A stretch of DNA of 32,357 nucleotides from Deltaproteobacteria bacterium (lineage in GTDB: Bacteria > Myxococcota_A > UBA9160 > SMWR01): positions 1-32,357 of the forward strand of contig JAFDEI010000037.1 in assembly GCA_019310425.1 (NCBI GenBank), in the 5' to 3' direction. The notes under the pieces were generated by a model. That model saw nothing but the letters and a program-made list of their open reading frames with translations, was not told where the DNA came from and ran no database searches. Every line of letters begins with the position of its first letter. The first letter of the stretch is position 1. A program made the translations under genes and the position numbers. Positions 10,096-25,912 of this stretch are shown in pieces.

Positions 10096-10962
10096 CTAGC
10101 TGAAGAGAACCGTGCGCAGCTTGCCGATCGGCTTGAAGCCGAGCCGCTCATACAGACGCACGCCGGCCGTGTTGCCGTCGACGACGGCGAGTTGCACGTG
10201 ATCCGCGCCGGCCGCGAATGCCTCGCGGCAGAGATCCGTGACGCCTGCGGTTGCGAAACCCCGGCGACGCACATCGGGCCAGCAATAGACACCCTGCAAC
10301 AGCCAGCCCGTCGTGAGGCGAACGTCGGCGTAGCCTACGCAGACGATCGTGCCCCCGCGCTCGACGACGCGTGCGCGCTCCACGCGGCCCTGTACCCAGC
10401 GTTTGAATCCCTTGACATCACCGGAGAACGGGTCCGGGCGATCCTCTTCGCGCAAGCTCTCCCGCGCAGCCACGACCAGCGCATCGAGGTCGGCATCGAA
10501 CGCAGCGCGGGTCACGGCATCGCCCTGCGAAGTTGACAGATCCGCGTCACTCGCGCGAACCACGTACGCCGTCTCGAGGCGGTCGAGCAACACGTGGCGA
10601 CGGCGTCTTCGCGCGAGATGCCGCCAGATCGTGTCGATCACGTCGGACGAGCTCTTCATCAGCCCGATCCCGATCGACTCGAGAGACGGAAAAAAGGCTT
10701 CGAGCACCTCGGGCGGTGCCACACTGAACACCAGGGTCGGCCGCAGGGCCGCGACCGCGAGCAGTTCGTCGCCACGCCAGGCACCGAGTAGCTCGGTCGC
10801 GGCCTCACCCGGCGACGGCGGTGACGCGAGGCGCAGCACCAGGTCGATCAGGAGCAGATTGCCCACCGGATCCAGCTCGAGCAACGCCAGCGCTTCATCG
10901 CGCATTTCGGGCTTGATTCGCCGCGCGATCACACCAGCCACGGCGTCCCCGTCTCCGTGCAC
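10096..10962 (-). CDS. GNAT family N-acetyltransferase
   Basis: C-terminal GNAT signature WPDVRRRGFATAGVTDLCREAFAAGADHVQLAVVDGNTAGVRLYERLGFKPIGKLRTVLF. Confidence 0.85.
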   Translation of the reverse strand: MHGDGDAVAGVIARRIKPEMRDEALALLELDPVGNLLLIDLVLRLASPPSPGEAATELLGAWRGDELLAVAALRPTLVFSVAPPEVLEAFFPSLESIGIGLMKSSSDVIDTIWRHLARRRRRHVLLDRLETAYVVRASDADLSTSQGDAVTRAAFDADLDALVVAARESLREEDRPDPFSGDVKGFKRWVQGRVERARVVERGGTIVCVGYADVRLTTGWLLQGVYCWPDVRRRGFATAGVTDLCREAFAAGADHVQLAVVDGNTAGVRLYERLGFKPIGKLRTVLFS

Positions 10963-10990
10963 CCGTCGGCGCGCCTGCCACGGTGAATGG

Positions 10991-11206
10991 TCATTCGATG
11001 ACCGCGAGGATCATTCCCTCCTCGATGGAGTCACCTTCCGCGACCGCGATTCGCGCAATGGTGCCGGCGCGCGGAGCCTCGACCGGGATCTCCATCTTCA
11101 TGGATTCGATGATCATGATCACGTCTTCTTCCTCGACCGTATCCCCGACGGCCTTCTCGAGCTTCCAGAGATTGCCCGCGATTTGGGCCGCCACCTCGGT
11201 CGTCAT
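10991..11206 (-). CDS. Stand-alone biotin (biotinyl/lipoyl) carrier protein, 71 aa
   Basis: MTTEVAAQIAGNLWKLEKAVGDTVEEEDVIMIIESMKMEIPVEAPRAGTIARIAVAEGDSIEEGMILAVIE with ESMKM biotinylation motif. The longer listed ORF is an antisense extension over ffh. Confidence 0.88.
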   Translation of the reverse strand: MTTEVAAQIAGNLWKLEKAVGDTVEEEDVIMIIESMKMEIPVEAPRAGTIARIAVAEGDSIEEGMILAVIE

Positions 11207-11323
11207 GCGTTCCCCCAACCCCCGTCGGTGCTTCACAGAGGTCATGGTGCACCCCGAATTGCAATCGAGCAAGCCGCATGGCGGAAGGCGCACGTCCGCT
11301 ATTCTCCGCGCCTCGGAGAAACC

Positions 11324-12758
11324 ATGCTCGAAACACTGACCCAGGGATTCACCAGCGCCCGCGAGAAGCTCGCCGGCGTGCGACAGCTGACCGAGGAGAA
11401 CATCGATCAGTCGCTGCGCGACGTGCGCATGTCGCTGCTCGAAGCCGATGTCGACTTCGCGGTGGTGAAGGACTTCCTCGCGACCGTCAAGGAGCGGGCG
11501 CTCGGCGAAAAGGTCGACACACGCGTGCGCGATGCGGGCGGACGCAGCATCAAGGTCACCCCCGGGCAGCACTTCGTGAAGATCTGCGAAGAAGAGCTCA
11601 CGGCGCTGATGGGGCCGGTCGACCCGGAGCTCGCACAGGGCGAGGGTGGTGTGGTGTCGCTGATGCTCGTCGGCCTCCAGGGCGTCGGCAAGACCACCGT
11701 CGCGGCCAAGCTCGCGCGCCACCTCCAGGGCCAGAAGCGCCGGCCGCTGCTGGTCGCGGCAGACGTCTACCGGCCGGCCGCGGTTTTGCAGCTGCAACAG
11801 CTCGGCAAACAACTCGACGTCACGGTCCACGCAGGCGCCGAGGGCGAATCGCCGGCCACGATCTGCGCGGCCGCCTGCAAACGCGCGCGTGCGGAAGGCT
11901 ACGACGCGATCATCTACGACACCGCGGGGCGACTCGCGATCGACGATACGCTGATGGAAGAGCTTCGAGAGATCGGCCAGAAGACCTCGCCCGCAAACAC
12001 ACTGTTGGTCTGCGACTCGCTGATGGGGCGCGACGCCGTCAACGTCGCCAAGGCGTTCAGCGAGAAGCTCGACATCCACGGACTGATCCTGACCAAGCTC
12101 GACGGCGACGCCCGAGGCGGCGCGGCCCTCGCGATCAAGGCCGTCACAGGCGTTCCGATCAAATTCCTTGGAACGGGCGAGTCGCTCGACCGACTCGAGG
12201 AATTTCGGCCCGAGGGGCTCGCGTCACGCGGGAAAGTTCGGCCTCGAAGACCTGCTCAAACAGCTGCGCACGATCCAGAAGCTCGGGCCGCTGCGCGACG
12301 TGATGGCCAAGATGCCGATGTTCGGTGGGCTCGCCGACCAGGTAGACGAAAGCGAACTCGGGCGCGTCGAGGCGTTGATCCAGTCGATGACGCCCGCCGA
12401 GCGTGCGCAGCCCGAGATCATCGACAAGCGGCGCTCGACGCGAATCGCGCGCGGCAGCGGCCGACGAAGCCAGGACGTCCGCAACCTGATCGAACGCTTC
12501 GTGCAGATGCGCGGCATGATGGCCAACCTCGGCAAGAAGGGTGGGCTGCTGTCGAAGATCCCCGGCATGGGCGGCATGGCGGGCGCCGGCGCCGGCGATA
12601 TGGACCCGGCCAGCTTGATGGCCGCAATGGGGGGCGGGGGTGGCCTTGGCGATGCCGCCGCCGGACCGAGTCAGCGTGTGCTCGAGAAGAAGCGCGTGCG
12701 CAGCAAGGGAAAACGCAAACAAGCCCGCAAGGCTCGACGAAAGAACCGAAAGCGCTGA
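11324..12758 (+). pseudogene. ffh: Signal recognition particle protein Ffh, interrupted by a frameshift and missing the NG-M linker
   Basis: N/G domain in frame from ATG 11324 (GLQGVGKTTVAAKLA, DTAGR, TKLDGDARGG, GTGES) to about 12229. M domain in a second frame from about 12231 (GKFGLEDLLKQLRTIQKLGPL...RGSGRRSQDVRNLIERFVQMRGMM) to the stop at 12758. Confidence 0.85.
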
Positions 12759-12953
12759 ACACGGACCCGCGGCGGGGCTCTCCGACGAACCCCCGAGATT
12801 GCAATCGCGAGAATCGCGCTAGCCTGGAAGGGTTCTTCGGCAGACGGTGGGGGCGATCCGAGAATGCGTCCGGGGTTACCCCGTGGGGGGATATCCCGTT
12901 CCACCGCCATACGTTCAGGTTTTGCGCGAATGTTACCGATTCATTGCGTACCC

Positions 12954-15476
12954 ATGGCCAGAATTGCGTCCGCTTTCATCCTGACCTTGATCAGCTTGCT
13001 AGCCACTCCGGCCGCCGCGGCCGGGGAAATGCTGCCGTTACCGGCCTCGCTCCAGCCGAACGTGCGCTTCTGGACTCGGATCTATTCCGAGATCGACCTC
13101 TCGGGCGGAATGATCCACGACAGCCGGAACCTCGACATCGTCTACGAGGTGATGCGCTTCCCGCCCGGCCTCTCGCGCCGTGAACACGAACGCAAGGTCG
13201 CGAAGGCCAAGCGCGACTGCGTGATCGCACTCAAGCGACTCGCACGCGGAGAACGAGAGAACCTGAGCGAGAAGGACAGGCAGGTGCTCTCGCGCTGGCC
13301 AGAGGGCGTCAGCAACAAGACCCTCGCCACCGCCGCGAAGAACGTCCGCTTCCAGCGCGGCCAGGCCGACCGCTTCAAGGCCGGACTCGAACGCGCCGGC
13401 GCATGGCGGAGCCACATCGAGCAGGTATTCGATCAGGCCGGACTCCCGCGCGAGTTCGTCGCCCTGCCCCACGTCGAGTCGTCGTACCGGGCAGACGCCT
13501 ACTCGAGTATCGGCGCCGCGGGTTTGTGGCAGTTCACGCGCTCGACCGGACGGCTCTACATGCGGGTCGACAATGTCGTCGACGAGCGACTCGATGCACA
13601 CGCGGCGACTTACGCGGCCGCGAAGCTGTTGAAGCGCAACTACGAGTTGCTCGGCAGCTGGCCGCTCGCGATCACCGCATACAACCACGGAGCCGGCGGC
13701 ATGGCGCGAGCGGTTCGCAAAGTGGGCAGCGAGGACATCGGGAAGATCGTCACCGATTACAACGGGCGGACCTTTGGATTCGCTTCGCGCAACTTCTACG
13801 CCGAATTCCTGGCAGCGCTCGAGGTGGACCGCAACAGCCAGCGCTACTTCGGGCCCATCCACCAGGACCGCCCGCGAAATTTCGAGAGAGTCGTACTCGA
13901 TGCCTACTACCCCCCCAGCGCTCTCGAAAAGGCCTTCGGCATCGACCGCAAGACACTCGAGTCGTACAACCCGTCGTTGCGACCGGCTGTCTGGAACGGC
14001 AACAAATACGTGCCGAAGGACTTCAAACTCGCACTGCCGCCAGAGTCACGCACGCTGCCGAGCGAAGAGTTGCTGGCGGCGATCCCGACATCGGACCGCA
14101 AGAGCGAGCAGCACCGCGACCGCTACTACAAAGTCAGGCGCGGCGACTCACTATCGAGGATCGCGCAGCGCTACCGGATCCGGATCCGGGAGCTCGTGGC
14201 GGCGAACAACCTGCGCAGCCGGCACCGCATCCGGGTCGGCCAGGTGCTGGTGCTGCCCGACCACGCGTACCGCAGCCGAGGCAACGTCGCGCGCACCGAT
14301 CGACCCAAGGACGGTATCTACCGCGTGCGGCGCGGCGACAACCTGTCTGCAATTGCGGAGCGGTTCGGCGTGAGCGCACGGGAAGTCGCGACTGCGAACA
14401 GGCTGCGCAATCGCAATCGCGTCTACGTGGGGCAGAAGCTTCGTATTCCCACGACCAATCTGCCCGCGGTCGCAAGCAGCGCCCATCTCGAGGACGGCGT
14501 CTACAAGGTGCGGCGCGGTGACAACCTCTCAGCCATTGCGAGACGATTCGGCGTGAGCGCCCAGGAAGTCGTCGCCGCGAACGGCCTGCGCAATCGCAAC
14601 CAGCTCGCCATCGGCCAGACACTCCGGATTCCGGGCGGCGACGCAAGCCCCACCGCGAGCGGCTCGCGCCCGAAAAACGGCATCTACCGCGTGCAGCACG
14701 GCGACAGCCTGTCGGCAATTGCCTCCCGCTTCGACGTCAGCGAATCTGCGCTCGTCGCGGAGAACGCCCTGCGGAACCGCCACCACGTCTACGTGGGGCA
14801 GGATCTGAGGATTCCCGAACCGGTCGACGTCGCGACGGCAAAGCCCGAGAAGCCCGCCGAGCCCGTATCGCAACCGCAGGCTGAGCCTGCGGCCACGGTG
14901 AGCGAGGTCGACGGACCCGCCCGCATCGCAACGCGCGATCAGCCGGACGCAACCGCGGCGGCCGACAGCAGTCGCCTCGACTCCCAGACCGCGTCTCTCG
15001 AGCCCGAACCGACCGTATCGGCGGCCTCCGGCCCGCCGCCCCCCGACCCCTCCGATTACGAAGTCGACTCGAAAGGTCGCGTCACCGTGCAGGCTGCCGA
15101 AACCCTCGGCCATTATGCGGAGTGGCTCGAGATCAAGACCAGTCGCCTGCGGCGGCTGAACAGCCTCAAGTTCGGCACCTCGGTCGCGATCGGCCGCAAG
15201 ACCATGCTCGACTTCAGCCACGTCACGTCCGAGACCTTCGAACAGCGCCGGCTCGCGTACCACCACACGCTCCAGGAAGAGTATTTCACCGCCTTCGAAG
15301 TCATCGGCACCAGGACCCACCTGATTCGCAGCGGAGAGAGTCTGTGGTACCTCGCCGAACGGAAGTACGAAGTGCCGGTCTGGCTGATTCGCCAGTACAA
15401 CCCCGACCTCGATTTCAGCGCACTCCAGTCGGGGACCCGGATGGTGATTCCCGAAGTCGGGCGGCGCGGAGCGTAG
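12954..15476 (+). CDS. Membrane-bound lytic murein transglycosylase, MltD-like, with tandem LysM domains
   Basis: SLT/GH23 motifs (FVALPHVESSYRADAYSSIGAAGLWQFTRSTGR; ITAYNHGAGGMARA), then four LysM repeats (V[R/Q]xGD[S/N]LSxIA...GQxLxIP) and a C-terminal LysM-like segment (HLIRSGESLWYLAERKY...). ATG 12954 gives a signal peptide. Confidence 0.88.
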   Translation: MARIASAFILTLISLLATPAAAAGEMLPLPASLQPNVRFWTRIYSEIDLSGGMIHDSRNLDIVYEVMRFPPGLSRREHERKVAKAKRDCVIALKRLARGERENLSEKDRQVLSRWPEGVSNKTLATAAKNVRFQRGQADRFKAGLERAGAWRSHIEQVFDQAGLPREFVALPHVESSYRADAYSSIGAAGLWQFTRSTGRLYMRVDNVVDERLDAHAATYAAAKLLKRNYELLGSWPLAITAYNHGAGGMARAVRKVGSEDIGKIVTDYNGRTFGFASRNFYAEFLAALEVDRNSQRYFGPIHQDRPRNFERVVLDAYYPPSALEKAFGIDRKTLESYNPSLRPAVWNGNKYVPKDFKLALPPESRTLPSEELLAAIPTSDRKSEQHRDRYYKVRRGDSLSRIAQRYRIRIRELVAANNLRSRHRIRVGQVLVLPDHAYRSRGNVARTDRPKDGIYRVRRGDNLSAIAERFGVSAREVATANRLRNRNRVYVGQKLRIPTTNLPAVASSAHLEDGVYKVRRGDNLSAIARRFGVSAQEVVAANGLRNRNQLAIGQTLRIPGGDASPTASGSRPKNGIYRVQHGDSLSAIASRFDVSESALVAENALRNRHHVYVGQDLRIPEPVDVATAKPEKPAEPVSQPQAEPAATVSEVDGPARIATRDQPDATAAADSSRLDSQTASLEPEPTVSAASGPPPPDPSDYEVDSKGRVTVQAAETLGHYAEWLEIKTSRLRRLNSLKFGTSVAIGRKTMLDFSHVTSETFEQRRLAYHHTLQEEYFTAFEVIGTRTHLIRSGESLWYLAERKYEVPVWLIRQYNPDLDFSALQSGTRMVIPEVGRRGA

Positions 15477-19787: not shown

Positions 19788-20636
19788 CTACAGCGGAGTC
19801 CGGCCCGTCGGCCGGATCTTGCGTGTCAACAGCCGAATTCGACGTTGAATGATCTCGAAACGACCCCGATCGCTCACTTTCAGGCCCAAACCTTCGGGCA
19901 TCTCGGCCAGCAGCGCGGTCGTCTCCTCGATCCGATCCTCGGTCGCGGGGTGGCTCGAGAAGAATGCGAGCCCGGCGTTCCCGCTTTCCCGCCGCACCAC
20001 CTGCAGGAATGTCAGCATACCGTGCGGATCGTAGCCCGCCGCGGGCATTACCTCGATTGCGAAGACGTCGGCCTCGAGTTCGTCAGCCCGCGAGAAGCTG
20101 TTCAGCAGGGCCATCGACGCGAGCCCGCTGCCGAGGTTGGCAAGGCCACCAAAGCCGAAGAGCGATGCGGCCAGGACTCCGGCCTGCGCGGCGGTTCCAA
20201 CGTTGCGCTGGCGATCGTAGTTCTCGGCGATGTGGCGCAGCGCCACGTGACCGATCTCGTGAGCGAGGACCGAAGCGACTTCGCTCACGTTGCGGGCCTG
20301 CAGGATCGTCCCGCTGTGGATGTAGATGTAGCCCGCCGGTGCCGCGAAGGCGTTGATCTCATCGTCCTCGACGACTTCGAAACGGTACTCGAACGGTTGC
20401 GGACCGGCCGCAGAAACGATCTCCTCGCCGATCGAACGGACGTAGTCGAGCACGACCGCGTCCCGGATGAACAGCAGCTCGCCGCGCGCCTGCTGCGCGA
20501 TCTCCGCCCCGAGTTGCCTCTCCTCGGAAACCGTCACGGTGCCACAGCCGATGACCGAACCGGCCAGGATCAGCGACGTCAGCAGTGCCGCAAGAAATCT
20601 CGTGAACGAAATCGGCTCACAACATTTCGGCCGCAT
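19788..20636 (-). CDS. M48 family metallopeptidase lipoprotein
   Basis: Lipobox-like ILAGSVIGCG, zinc motif HEIGH (SVLAHEIGHVALRH), C-terminal SHPATEDRI. Confidence 0.9.
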   Translation of the reverse strand: MRPKCCEPISFTRFLAALLTSLILAGSVIGCGTVTVSEERQLGAEIAQQARGELLFIRDAVVLDYVRSIGEEIVSAAGPQPFEYRFEVVEDDEINAFAAPAGYIYIHSGTILQARNVSEVASVLAHEIGHVALRHIAENYDRQRNVGTAAQAGVLAASLFGFGGLANLGSGLASMALLNSFSRADELEADVFAIEVMPAAGYDPHGMLTFLQVVRRESGNAGLAFFSSHPATEDRIEETTALLAEMPEGLGLKVSDRGRFEIIQRRIRLLTRKIRPTGRTPL

Positions 20637-21840
20637 CGAAGTCGCCCTTCTTCCGGAGACTCTCCGTCACATGCCGAACGATCTGAAGCACCGATGAATC
20701 GAACGAAACGTTGTCGACGATCGGAACACCGTGTCGATCCGCAAGCTCGAGCAGGTGATTCTGGACTCGGAGAATCGCGTTGAGATTCTTCAGATAGCGG
20801 TGCTGCGGACGCGCCTTCGCGCTTGTCGCGCGCTCGGCGAAGCGGGTCTCGAAACCTTCCTCGTCGAGCAACGAGACCATCACGAAGAACACGTCGGCCA
20901 GATCGGCATAGACCTCGAGATCGATCAACCCAGGCACGATCGCCACGCCGTCGAGGACCAGGCTCGCGTTTTCGAGTACCGCGCGGTCCATCGACGCCCG
21001 CACCCCGACCGACACCGAAGCGGCCTGGCTCATGAATCCGTCGATGACCGGATCGTCGCCGACCGACTCGGGCGGCAACAGCTTGTGCGCGTCGTACGAG
21101 GACGCGTGCAGCGCCGGGACCAGATCCTGAGACAACATGATGCGCATGATCTGCCGAATCGAGTCGGTCGACAGTACGCGGCCGATGCCGAGCCGGTGGG
21201 CAACCTCGAGCGCGAGCGACGTCTTGCCGACGCCCGTCGCACCACCGAGCAGGATGATCACCGGGCGCTCCGGCTCCTGGTACTTGCGCCAGACCAGGTA
21301 GCGCTCGGCGGCCCGCGGACTCACCTCGCGTGTGAGCACGTCGAACGTCATCCGACGCAGATCGCGGCGATCGACCTCGTGCGTGCCGCTCGCGACCAGT
21401 TCGCGTTCGATTTCGCGTGCGACATCGAACGCGTCGTTGGGGTCGAGTGCAGCCGCGAGCAGCGACTGCGACAGGTGACCTTTCGAAAACGGCACACCTT
21501 TCCCGCGGCCCGTGACCGTGATCTCGGCACCCGGCAACGGAACCCGCGGATCCTCGGCGAAAGGCTCCGGGCCGAGGATCTCGCGCAGCATCTTGGCGAG
21601 TTCGCTCTTCTCGAGAACCACGCGATCCCCGACCCGAGAACGCACCTCGTTGGCTGCGTGAAAGGCCTCGTCGAACGCGATCCCGCGAGCCATCAGCGAG
21701 TGGATCATGATGCCGCGCATGAACGGCCGGCGTTTGCCAGCGTCCTCGACCTGAATACGACCTTTCTGACGCTCGGACAGAGAAACTCGCGCAGGCCCGG
21801 AAGCCCGTTTTCGGTCGTCCGATGAGCCCATTGGATGCAA
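20617..21840 (-). CDS. 2-phosphoglycerate kinase-like protein with N-terminal ATP-cone-like domain
   Basis: IILLGGATGVGKTSLALEVAHRLGIGRVLSTDSIRQIMR P-loop kinase core; N-terminal RRPFMRGIMIHSLMARGIAFDEAFHAANEVRSRV resembles an ATP-cone. Confidence 0.75.
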   Translation of the reverse strand: MHPMGSSDDRKRASGPARVSLSERQKGRIQVEDAGKRRPFMRGIMIHSLMARGIAFDEAFHAANEVRSRVGDRVVLEKSELAKMLREILGPEPFAEDPRVPLPGAEITVTGRGKGVPFSKGHLSQSLLAAALDPNDAFDVAREIERELVASGTHEVDRRDLRRMTFDVLTREVSPRAAERYLVWRKYQEPERPVIILLGGATGVGKTSLALEVAHRLGIGRVLSTDSIRQIMRIMLSQDLVPALHASSYDAHKLLPPESVGDDPVIDGFMSQAASVSVGVRASMDRAVLENASLVLDGVAIVPGLIDLEVYADLADVFFVMVSLLDEEGFETRFAERATSAKARPQHRYLKNLNAILRVQNHLLELADRHGVPIVDNVSFDSSVLQIVRHVTESLRKKGDFDAAEML

Positions 21841-22001: not shown

Positions 22002-22484
22002 GTGAGTTCGAGACCACCCAGTGATCTGTACCCCGTTCGCGATGTCGTCGAGATCCTGAAAATCTCGCGCCGCCAACTCCAATACTGGGCTCTGACCGAT
22101 CTGATCGCACCGAGTGAGCACACCGAGGGCGGGCACGGACGGTACACATTCGAAGATCTCGTCGCCCTCAAGGCCGCCAAACGCCTGATCGACTCCGGTG
22201 TTTCGGTACAACGCATCCGAAAATCGATCGGTGTGCTGCGCCGCATGCTGCCCTCCGTCGAGCGCCCGCTCGCTGAACTGGTGCTGGTGGCGACCGGCGA
22301 TGTCGTCCTGGCTTTCCGTGACGGCACCGCGTTCGACGCACTCTCGGGCCAGGAGTGGGTCTTCGAAGTCGCGAAATTCCAACGGGAGATCGAGGACTGG
22401 AAACGTTCGGTCGACTCGCTGGCGACCGCCAAGAAAGCGACCCGAACCGTTGATCGATCGGGGGTACGAAACCAGAGCGCGTGA
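22002..22484 (+). CDS. MerR family transcriptional regulator
   Basis: N-terminal winged helix (YPVRDVVEILKISRRQLQYWALTDLIAPSEHTEGGHGRYTFEDLVALKAAKRLIDSGVSVQRIRKSI). GTG start. Confidence 0.85.
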   Translation: MSSRPPSDLYPVRDVVEILKISRRQLQYWALTDLIAPSEHTEGGHGRYTFEDLVALKAAKRLIDSGVSVQRIRKSIGVLRRMLPSVERPLAELVLVATGDVVLAFRDGTAFDALSGQEWVFEVAKFQREIEDWKRSVDSLATAKKATRTVDRSGVRNQSA

Positions 22485-22673: not shown

Positions 22674-23762
22674 ATGCGTATCATCGGAATCGTGAACCAG
22701 AAGGGTGGCTGCGGGAAGACGACCACCACGGTCAATCTCGCCGGTAGCCTGGCGGCTGACGGAGCGAGGGTGTTGGTGGTCGACCTGGACCCCCAGGCCC
22801 ATGCCACGCTGGCATTGGGCATCGACCCCGAAGACCTCGAAGAGAATCTCTACGAGGTCTTGACCGACCCCGACGGCGCCGATCGCCTGCAGGAAGTTCT
22901 GGTCCAGGGCGGAGGAGATGTCGCGATCGCGCCCTCCGGAATCGTGCTTTCCGCACTCGAGCAGAGGCTCGCGAACGCGGAGATCGAATCGCGGACCGAC
23001 CGCCTCTCGAATGCGCTCGAAACCGTACAGGGGATGTTCGATTATGCCCTGATCGACTGCCCGCCGAATGTGGGTCTGCTGACCTTCAACGCACTGCGCG
23101 CCGCCAGCGAGGTGATCGTCCCGCTCGAGATGAGCTACTTCGCGATCCACGGCGTCCAGAAGCTGATCGAAACCATCGCACTCCTGTCCGAGCGCGTCTC
23201 GCACGACCTCGAAGTGCGGATCCTGCCGACGCTCTACGACGGCCGCACGCGACACGCGCGCCAGACTCTCGCGGAAATCCGCGAAATGTACAAAGACCTT
23301 TGCTTCGATACCGTGATCCGGCTCAACGTGAAGCTGCGCGAGGCGGCCAATCGCGGCCTGCCGATCTGCCTCTTCGCACCGTCCGCCAACGGTTCGCGCG
23401 ACTACAACGCGCTCGCCGTGGAGGTCGAGGCGTCGGACCCGAGCTTCGCCGACGCAACCCTCGGCGAGAATGCCGGTCTCGCGGAAGATCCCGTTCGCGA
23501 GGTAGTGGTGCGATTCCGCGACGCCAGCGCAAACGATGTCCGCATCGCGGGCGATTTCAACGGCTGGATTCCAGACAAGGGCGTGCGATCACTGATAGAA
23601 TCAGAGGGAAGCGAGCGGGTCTGGACGAAAATCCTCCAGCTGCCGCCCGGAACCTACGAGTACCGGTACGTCGTCGATGGTGAGTGGCGCGAAGACCCCC
23701 AGAATCCGGAGTTCGATTCGGGATCCACGGGAGGGCGCAATTCGATTCTCGTCGTCCGGTAG
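22674..23762 (+). CDS. ParA/Soj-like ATPase fused to a C-terminal AMPK-beta/CBM48-like (E-set) domain
   Basis: Residues ~1-250: MRIIGIVNQKGGCGKTTTTVNLAGSLA (deviant Walker A), VVDLDPQAHATLALG, ALIDCPPNVGLLTFNAL. C-terminus: VREVVVRFRDASANDVRIAGDFNGWIPDKG...WTKILQLPPGTYEYRYVVDGEWREDPQNPEF. Confidence 0.92.
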   Translation: MRIIGIVNQKGGCGKTTTTVNLAGSLAADGARVLVVDLDPQAHATLALGIDPEDLEENLYEVLTDPDGADRLQEVLVQGGGDVAIAPSGIVLSALEQRLANAEIESRTDRLSNALETVQGMFDYALIDCPPNVGLLTFNALRAASEVIVPLEMSYFAIHGVQKLIETIALLSERVSHDLEVRILPTLYDGRTRHARQTLAEIREMYKDLCFDTVIRLNVKLREAANRGLPICLFAPSANGSRDYNALAVEVEASDPSFADATLGENAGLAEDPVREVVVRFRDASANDVRIAGDFNGWIPDKGVRSLIESEGSERVWTKILQLPPGTYEYRYVVDGEWREDPQNPEFDSGSTGGRNSILVVR

Positions 23763-23777
23763 GGAAGACGTGCGAAA

Positions 23778-24569
23778 TTGCCCCGCGATCTCGGCGACGT
23801 AATTCACCATTTCCTGCCCCAGGACGGGAACGGCACGGGTCCGGACTCCGTCACCGGCGGGCCGCGACTGGAACGGCCGGCGGCGCTTCCGATCATTTCC
23901 CTGCCAATCGGCGACCGCGACGTCGTGCGCGCCGCCTATGCGTGGAACCTCGCCGTCGAGGTCGCACGACGCGGTGCGAGCGCAACGCTGCTCGCACCCG
24001 TAAGTGCGGAACCGTCGCCACTGTGGCCCGAGCCCGGCCGCGGCCCCGTGGGTGCCGAAGTCGTGCTCGCCGACGTGAACGACTTCGGCGAATTGAATCG
24101 CGCGGCGCTGGACATTGCCGTGGGTCGTGCGGCAGACTCCGGCGACGGCGGCGTGGTGCTGGTCAGCGTGCCACCCGCGTGGTTCGAGAACGCCAACGAG
24201 GGCCGCGCGCTGATGCGCTGGGTGCTGTTATTCGCCGCCGCGGAGGCCCGGGATTTGCGCGAAATTTACGGCTTGGCCAAACGAATCATCCGCACCAACC
24301 CGGAGGCCCGGGTCGGCATCACCGTTCACGGTGTGCGCCGGATCGGCGAAGCGGAAAGCGCGTTCAAGAAGCTCTCGGGCGCAGCCCAGCGCCACCTCGG
24401 GTACCCGCTCACGAGCTACGGCCTGCTCGTCGACGACCTGCACGTCTACCGCGCCATCGTGTCACGTCGACCGATCGGCCTCGAGCACCCCCAGTCACGC
24501 GCGGCCAAGGCCCTGCGCGACGTCGCCCGGATGCTGTTGGAAGACGCCCGGATGCTCGCCAATGCCTGA
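23778..24569 (+). CDS. MinD/FlhG-like protein with degenerate nucleotide-binding loop
   Basis: IISLPIGDRDVVRAAYAWNLAVEVARRGASATLLAP aligns by pattern to the MinD N-terminus but lacks GKGGxGKT; C-terminal FKKLSGAAQRHLGYPLTSYGLLVDDLHVYRAIVSRRPIGLEHPQSRAAKALRDVARML resembles the MinD/FlhG C-terminus. TTG start assumed. Confidence 0.65.
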   Translation: MPRDLGDVIHHFLPQDGNGTGPDSVTGGPRLERPAALPIISLPIGDRDVVRAAYAWNLAVEVARRGASATLLAPVSAEPSPLWPEPGRGPVGAEVVLADVNDFGELNRAALDIAVGRAADSGDGGVVLVSVPPAWFENANEGRALMRWVLLFAAAEARDLREIYGLAKRIIRTNPEARVGITVHGVRRIGEAESAFKKLSGAAQRHLGYPLTSYGLLVDDLHVYRAIVSRRPIGLEHPQSRAAKALRDVARMLLEDARMLANA

Positions 24570-25152
24570 TCTCCAGCTGATCGCTCCGCCGCCGCGCGAC
24601 GAGTTGATCGCACAGCTGCGCGGCCGCCTCGGCCATGCAGTACCGGGCCTGCGCGTGCTCGCCGAGAGGCTGCTCGGCGCCGATTCGACCATCGACTTCG
24701 TCGCGCTCGAACCGACCGGGCGCGTGGTGCTGATTCTCGTCGGTGATCGCAATGACGACCTCGAACTCGTCGGGCGCGGGCTCGCGCAGCGCGCCTGGGT
24801 GTCGGCGCGCCTCGGCGACTGGACGCAGCTGGCGCCGAATCTCGGCCTGGAGCCCGACGCCGAGGTACGGGTCGTGCTGGCCTGCCCCGCATTCGGTGCC
24901 GAAGCGTCTGCGGCGCTGCGCGCGCTCGGGAGCAGTGTGATGACCGCGGTGACCTATCGCTGCGTCCAGAACGGCGTGGGTTTCGAGGTCCTCCTCGAGC
25001 ACCCCTTCGCGATGGACCCCGAGCTCGCAGGTGAGCCCGTAGGCTCGACGCAATCGTCCACCCCCGACTCGAGCAACCCGCCGTCGTTTCGCACCGGCCT
25101 CAGCGACGCCGACCTCGGGCTCACGCCCGAGGAACGGAGCGAGTTCGACTAA
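24562..25152 (+). CDS. Conserved hypothetical protein, translationally coupled to the upstream MinD-like gene
   Basis: ATG at 24562 overlaps the preceding stop by 8 nt; continuous globular sequence (LIAQLRGRLGHAVPGLRVLAERLLGADSTIDFVALEPTGRVVLILVGDRNDDLELVGRGLAQRAWV...). Confidence 0.75.
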   Translation: MPDLQLIAPPPRDELIAQLRGRLGHAVPGLRVLAERLLGADSTIDFVALEPTGRVVLILVGDRNDDLELVGRGLAQRAWVSARLGDWTQLAPNLGLEPDAEVRVVLACPAFGAEASAALRALGSSVMTAVTYRCVQNGVGFEVLLEHPFAMDPELAGEPVGSTQSSTPDSSNPPSFRTGLSDADLGLTPEERSEFD

Positions 25153-25257: not shown

Positions 25258-25330
25258 CAACGCGACCACTCCCTCACCGGGGGCCTCTTCTTCTGTGGAT
25301 GGAAGAGCCGAGCCCTGGGGAGATGGATTC

Positions 25331-25912
25331 ATGGCGGCTGCTGAACCGATCGTTGCAACGGAGATCTTGGACGAGGAGCTGATCGAGCGGGTCCAGCAGA
25401 GCGACCGCGCGGCCTTCGACATCCTCTACGAGCGCTACTTCCCGAGAGTCTCCGGCTACGTCCGTCGCCGCGTAGACAACCGCGCAGACGTCGAGGAAAT
25501 CGTCCAGGACGTCTTCATCAACGTCTTCACCTCCCTCGACTCGTTCCGCGGCGAGGCCCCTTTCGCTGCCTGGGTGCTCGGCATCTCGCGCTACACCATC
25601 GCGGGCCGATTCAAGAAGAAGCAGCACAAGATGGTGCCGCTCGACGGCACCCATCACGAAGACGAGAACGAGATGTCCTTTGCCGACCAACAGCGTGAGC
25701 CCTCGCCGCTCGAGCACTACGAATGCCGAGAGCGCATCAGCGAGCTCGAGACTACGGCCAGAACCCGGCTCACGCTCGATCAGTGGCAGCTCGTCGAACT
25801 CCACCACGTGAAGAACCACTCGGTCCGCCAGATGGCGTCCGACCTCGACCGCAGTGAGGATTCGATCAAGTCCAACCTCTACCGCGCGCGCAAGCTGCTG
25901 CTGGCGCGGTAG
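25331..25912 (+). CDS. ECF-type sigma-70 family RNA polymerase sigma factor
   Basis: Region 2 (AAFDILYERYFPRVSGYVRRRVDNRADVEEIVQDVFINVFTSLDSFRGEAPFAAWVLGISRYTI) and region 4 (LDQWQLVELHHVKNHSVRQMASDLDRSEDSIKSNLYRARKLL). Confidence 0.9.
   Translation: MAAAEPIVATEILDEELIERVQQSDRAAFDILYERYFPRVSGYVRRRVDNRADVEEIVQDVFINVFTSLDSFRGEAPFAAWVLGISRYTIAGRFKKKQHKMVPLDGTHHEDENEMSFADQQREPSPLEHYECRERISELETTARTRLTLDQWQLVELHHVKNHSVRQMASDLDRSEDSIKSNLYRARKLLLAR

Follow-up and report, generated by a model that had tools for sequence, protein, structure and literature searches.

The window, by which we mean the whole stretch of 32,357 nucleotides analysed here, carries on its + strand a single open frame of 362 aa (22674..23762, ATG start) that joins a Soj/ParA ATPase to a C-terminal E-set domain. 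The ATPase domain comprises residues 1-252 (22674..23429, +) and the E-set, or AMPK1_CBM domain, residues 274-362 (23493..23759, +), with a linker of residues 253-273 in between (23430..23492, +). In Pfam, the ATPase part matched AAA_31 at 6e-50 over residues 1-181 as well as CbiA at 5e-23. Residues 278-361 matched AMPK1_CBM at 9e-13, with 48.7 bits for a curated cut-off of 26.8; CBM_48 and the X25 pullulanase domain were weak matches of the E-set. Among PDB sequences, residues 2-252 correspond to Soj/ParA and residues 272-360 to AMPK beta, and the E-set taken as lone query without the ATPase also recovers the AMPK beta-type match. The AlphaFold model (mean pLDDT 89) shows two confident domains connected by a linker of low pLDDT that is loose at about residues 256-272. 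With this model Foldseek ranks Soj/ParA first for the ATPase part (E 1e-25 to 1e-22), the best ten such matches having a TMt of 0.85-0.94. The first-pass annotation had read the frame as a ParA fused to an AMPK-beta/CBM48-like E-set, in agreement with all of these comparisons. Mean protein identity over 24 relatives is 73% for the ATPase, 72% for the E-set and 20% for the linker. Within the window's own genome (G000, a 4.9 Mb assembly, 91% complete, with Myxococcota as relatives) the E-set is the sole AMPK1_CBM domain found.

The fusion is real. An orthologous ATPase is present in 55 of the 61 genomes of the window's order and bears the E-set in 53 of the 55, such that the count of retained fusions called for by the annotation amounts to 53 of 61 genomes, next to two ATPases that lack the E-set (G018 and the single-contig genome G017). 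In the assemblies of G036 and G047 the fusion gene is broken across frames. Since the E-set is kept in 53 of 61 genomes and full-length homologs are found in numerous independent assemblies across phyla, a frame-shift or assembly artefact can be dismissed. Within Myxococcota the fusion is limited to the window's class; among the matches listed, the other classes hold plain Soj-like ParAs that end near residue 260. Outside Myxococcota full-length homologs share about 40-45% identity with the window's protein, and the fusion occurs in at least seven phyla, with carriers in Omnitrophota (about 108 of 144 sampled genomes), Zixibacteria, Acidobacteria, Eisenbacteria, Planctomycetota, Syntrophaceae and Auribacterota. 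Almost all of the named loci come from MAGs. The homologs were scanned with the patterns IVNQKGGC and DPQAH, by which plain ParAs closer to the fusion clade may be missed. In a tree of the ATPase part alone, many deep forks of which are unresolved, the fusions form one clade apart from the Soj of relatives, with the G017 and G018 proteins nested inside. This nesting points to one origin of the E-set followed by two later losses. The divergent fusions of the Phycisphaerae type (L069, L072, L093) have a longer linker.

The ATPase part is of full length and contains the motifs KGGCGKTT (the deviant Walker A), DLDPQAH and DCPP (the Walker B); residues K10, K15, D37 and D39 are kept in 44 of 44 homologs. 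The basic residues K220 and R222 sit in the part of the domain through which Soj contacts DNA. Following DxDPQ, an Ala-His (residues 41-43, 22794-22802) is seen in all 44 aligned fusions where the Soj of relatives has Asn; as the homolog set was partly sampled by the pattern DPQAH, the invariance of H43 is biased. The same Asn in M. xanthus ParA, N64, is reported to aid the coordination of Mg and of the nucleophilic water, and the exchange of Asn for His might possibly alter the hydrolysis chemistry of the fusion. At the places of M. xanthus ParA Y81 and E117, which adjoin the ParB arginine (PMC12462528), the fusion has Y60 and E96, and 42 of 44 homologs retain them; the register was taken from the D58/D60 numbering of that study.

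Directly downstream lies a gene that we call c0 (23778..24569, +), which encodes a partner of 263 aa with FlhG/FleN-like fold according to profile, Foldseek and model. Its profile matches FlhG/FleN 4rz2 at 1.8e-29, FlhG is the nearest Foldseek match (4e-13), and in profile comparison it also aligns to the ParA part of the fusion. The AlphaFold model of c0 has a pLDDT of 89 and a free N-terminal tail. FlhG/FleN proteins (PDB 4rz2, 4rz3, 8p53) and c0 have in common a MinD-like fold and an N-terminal extension with a short motif, which in FlhG is DQAxxLR and acts on the partner NTPase FlhF (PMC12826062). In contrast to FlhG/FleN, c0 adjoins a ParA rather than flhF, and its peptide is ParB-like. 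In the window's c0 no DQAxxLR and no intact P-loop were seen: the Walker A is eroded and reads PIISLPIGDRDVVRAAYAWNLA; Eisenbacteria copies retain PGKST.

The pair is co-inherited. Almost throughout the window's class c0 adjoins the fusion, and no c0 match at E<=1e-20 was found in the 7 class genomes without the ATPase. The same pairing of c0 and fusion recurs in Eisenbacteria, Syntrophaceae and one Omnitrophota locus. The main Omnitrophota group has no c0, and the neighbouring genes there fail to score for its peptide. Some genomes, such as G051 (C39, C75) and G393 (C26, C27), hold two full-length fusion genes each, and the C75 copy of G051 is adjoined by a c0 of its own.

At the N-terminus of c0 we recognised, from its sequence pattern, a putative docking peptide (23784..23819, +). 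It follows the pattern R-x-L-x-D-V-x-H-x-F-L, reads RDLGDVIHHFLP in the window and carries R-x-L-x-x-[VL]-[IL]. The corresponding partner peptide of other phyla is LGRGLSDISHIF, with c0 starting as LGRGLSDISHIFLS. Where the c0 body has been lost, in G042, G048, G050 and G056 (family f4) and in the acidobacterium L067, the next gene begins with the peptide; in G044, also without c0 body, the next gene starts with a more divergent version. Scored with a matrix derived from c0, three of these next genes reach 20-30 bits, whereas 99% of the other called ORFs stay at or below 3.7 bits. Conversely, the peptide and c0 are both retained in G017 and G018, which have lost the E-set. Having survived the loss of the c0 body as well as of the E-set, the transferable peptide is the most persistent companion of the ATPase in these lineages. 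The annotation had missed both c0 and its peptide. A membrane-anchored Omnitrophota protein (c2) resembled a peptide carrier by eye and was dropped at a median score of -6.5 bits.

M. xanthus ParB has a comparable N-terminal motif; mutation established that its L11, L15, L18 and I19 make the contact with ParA, while R13 is required for ATPase stimulation (PMC12462528). The c0 peptide, which is short, fits L11-R13-L15-L18-I19, a likeness that rests on about five positions; the ParB of relatives reads ALGRGLGALI at the corresponding motif. By analogy we infer that c0 may stimulate the fusion ParA as ParB stimulates Soj.

The ParB-like peptide on the partner also speaks for a rival view, in which the fusion is an ordinary ATPase for the partition of chromosomes or plasmids and its C-terminal domain is decorative. 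The nearest solved relatives are indeed Soj/ParA proteins of ParABS (PDB 8ray, 6iub, 2bek, 1wcv), with which the fusion ATPase shares domain, motifs, length and fold as well as the tyrosine and glutamate near the ParB arginine. It differs from them by its E-set, by the Cys in KGGCGKT and by the invariant His in DxDPQAH at the place of the DPQxN Asn of the relatives' Soj. Furthermore, no ParB homolog was found among the fusion neighbours, and in relatives a Soj-ParB pair is located apart from the fusion locus (L113/L114). Even the closest plasmid records share less than 60% identity, and 6 of the eight listed end near residue 260. An ordinary partition role is therefore highly improbable, and a plasmid origin of the fusion was rejected for want of a close plasmid relative. 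We also rejected a defence system, for which the PADLOC matches were weak and generic.

Overlapping the end of c0 is a further gene, c1 (24562..25152, +), encoding 196 aa with weak NucS/PD-(D/E)xK likeness (E 0.002 to NucS), in which no catalytic residues are evident. It comes after c0 at many c0-bearing loci; the entry for L047, which was in a wrong frame, was left out. Behind the NucS-like body follows a conserved tail, FR-x-GL-x-x-x-DL-x-L-x-x-EE-x-x-x-F, which by its sequence looks like another docking peptide. In G017, ParA, c0 and c1 stay after the loss of the E-set, so that the E-set is not essential to the core. It is useful yet dispensable, as two lineages manage without it.

The E-set itself shares with the AMPK beta glycogen-binding domain (AMPK1_CBM, CBM48 clan; PDB 4y0g, 2f15, 1z0m) the sequence match, the pattern FN-x-W ... 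Y-[RK]-x-x-VDG-x-W ... DP and both stacking tryptophans, while being joined to an ATPase and not to a kinase subunit. W298 (23565..23567, +) and W338 (23685..23687, +) are the equivalents of the sugar-stacking W100 and W133 of AMPK-beta1, and both occur without exception in all 81 homologs. At the places of W100, W133, K126, L146 and N150, the last of which is also a sugar contact in AMPK-beta, the window has W, W, R, T and N. The AMPK-beta1 register used for these equivalences agrees with the PDB beta2 alignment. Over the 81 homologs the K126 place is R or K, with Q in 4, and the N150 place is N or D in all but two. The L146 place is aromatic (Y or F) in 38 of the 47 homologs outside the Myxococcota class and mostly V, T, M or A within it (T352 in the window). 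In AMPK-beta1, W100, K126, W133, L146 and T148 contact beta-cyclodextrin, and mutants bind less glycogen (PMC2642990). Judged by these residues, the sugar site appears to be retained, with one contact differing in the window's lineage specifically. The concern that the tail might be unconserved or devoid of ligand-site residues does not hold: apart from the two lineages that have lost it, the tail is conserved, and so are both of its tryptophans.

A putative sugar site next to a ParA raises the question of glycogen, which the annotation had put forward as a possible cargo. In other phyla the gene content supports this circumstantially, in line with the aromatic third contact: GT5 glycogen synthase is present in 36 of 39 fusion genomes, the three exceptions being of the Phycisphaerae type (L069, L072, L093), and in most loci of the main Omnitrophota group a GH57 gene lies upstream of the fusion (2e-65 in Pfam for the one member checked). 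Within Omnitrophota, GT5 occurs in 100 of 108 genomes with the fusion and in 25 of 36 without it (p=0.001), a comparison confounded by kinship and genome size; genomes without GT5 and fusion are mostly small, and we did not use the association as proof. The conserved gene order there (e.g. L091:5774-9849) is GH57, a membrane-anchored protein of ~190 aa with the N-terminus KEIYEHLANIYLDASSKKKKK, the fusion, a small membrane protein, and a Lys-rich protein ending in an EF-Tu domain-2-like region.

The window's class differs. Its 67 genomes contain GT5 in 11, GH13 in 33 and GH57 in 5 cases. GT5 is present in 10 and absent in 50 of the 60 ATPase-carrying genomes, and 25 of the 60 have no match to GT5, GH13 or GH57. 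These 25 comprise several genomes listed as 94-97% complete as well as G000, in which none of the three was detected at 91% completeness. After these searches we rejected glycogen cargo as the leading reading for the window's lineage. The pattern across phyla compared with that of the class makes an alpha-glucan link plausible for the family and not for the window's organism, whose fusion is unlikely to bind glycogen itself. The ancestral cargo of the fusion system was most likely an alpha-glucan body, to go by the distribution of these genes. Most genomes of the window's lineage no longer have the glycogen pathway, so that the E-set would have to bind some other ligand there, or a protein.

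One possibility is that in the Myxococcota lineage the E-set has given up sugar binding for a role as a protein-protein module, with a cargo protein, c0 or c1 as its partner; the tryptophans would then serve the structure or a protein surface. The missing glycogen genes would fit, as would the lost third contact, the strong lineage-specific constraint on the E-set (the 72% identity above) and a conserved PDK-x-V loop after FNGW that is specific to the Myxococcota lineage. A purely structural role, however, needs neither the W133 equivalent nor the R and N kept at the K126 and N150 places, and c0 and c1 stay in place after the E-set loss in G017. We consider this docking role unlikely. Less probable still appears a sensor, in which alpha-glucan or sugar binding to the E-set would allosterically change the ParA ATPase and couple a ParA-driven process to carbohydrate status. 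Glycogen does inhibit AMPK through W100/W133 of the beta subunit (PMC2642990), both tryptophans are invariant in the homologs, and GT5 co-occurs with the fusion in other phyla. Against it, the loose and unconserved linker gives no sign of domain coupling, and alpha-glucan enzymes were undetected in G000 and 24 other fusion genomes.

The reading we prefer, to which we assign about an even chance, is a chromosomal system of the ParA type that is dedicated to positioning or partitioning a cargo other than DNA, with the E-set as head, c0 as activator and an alpha-glucan ancestry. The ATP-bound ParA part would dimerise and bind the nucleoid non-specifically, with the E-set on its flexible linker as a built-in head facing the ligand or cargo. 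The annotation's idea of such a built-in head fits the evidence. The free N-terminal peptide of c0 (R-x-L-x-D-V-x-H-x-F) would dock on the ParA dimer in the manner of the ParB N-terminus and trigger ATP hydrolysis, while the FlhG-like body, which no longer shows clear signs of being an ATPase, might add a further contact. Release of the dimer from the nucleoid by the peptide would then produce the usual moving gradient. In the window's class the head would bind another glycan or a protein. Speaking against a positioning system are the retention of ParA, c0 and c1 in G017 after E-set loss, the absence of GT5, GH13 and GH57 matches in G000, the lost L146 contact, the shortness of the peptide with its few ParB-like positions, and the main Omnitrophota group, in which neither c0 nor a scoring peptide accompanies the fusion. 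A more specific form, in which the ATPase itself would hold on to a polysaccharide granule and transport or distribute it over the nucleoid, controlled by the ParB-like peptide switch of the pseudo-ATPase partner, and would later have been re-aimed at a different ligand in the glycogen-less Myxococcota class, we put forward tentatively, as possible and yet less probable than its opposite.

ParA/MinD ATPases are responsible for placing a wide range of bacterial cargoes, in most cases with the help of a separate adaptor. In the carboxysome system McdA-McdB and other ParA/MinD cargo systems, as in the fusion system, the ParA-type ATPase comes with a small set of neighbours and is not tied to DNA partition; McdA reaches its cargo via the adaptor McdB, whereas the fusion carries a ligand-type domain within the ATPase (PMC6328274, PMC10241942). 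Neither Pfam nor NCBIfam names the fusion, NCBIfam giving generic ParA-type models below their cut-offs. In the literature searched, from which subscription papers and preprints are largely excluded, we found no description of a ParA with a CBM48, AMPK1_CBM or glycogen-binding domain, nor of bacteria positioning or sharing out storage polysaccharide. We rate the individual parts (ParA, E-set, FlhG-like body) as known kinds and their combination as apparently new: fusion, spread, FlhG-like pseudo-ATPase and transferable ParB-like peptide together appear undescribed in Pfam, NCBIfam and this literature. A conserved ParA with a glycogen-binding-type head would provide a direct molecular handle on the question whether storage polysaccharide is positioned or shared out in bacteria. 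The family moreover offers natural experiments, in which the E-set is lost and the pair kept, the partner body lost and the peptide kept, or the glycogen genes lost and the E-set kept.

Several other genes lie around the fusion in the window. Upstream, a MerR-type HTH protein (22002..22484, +) is conserved in the Myxococcota class only, and its membership in the system is uncertain. A divergently placed gene (20617-21840, -) for a protein with an ATP-cone domain, a nucleotide sensor of the NrdR/RNR type, is conserved upstream in 26 Myxococcota loci. An ECF-type sigma factor gene (25295-25912, +), located a few genes past the fusion, is conserved in about 21 Myxococcota loci. Further away, a frame of 944 aa (10349-13183, +) contains an FtsY/SRP-type GTPase flanked on each side by several hundred residues.
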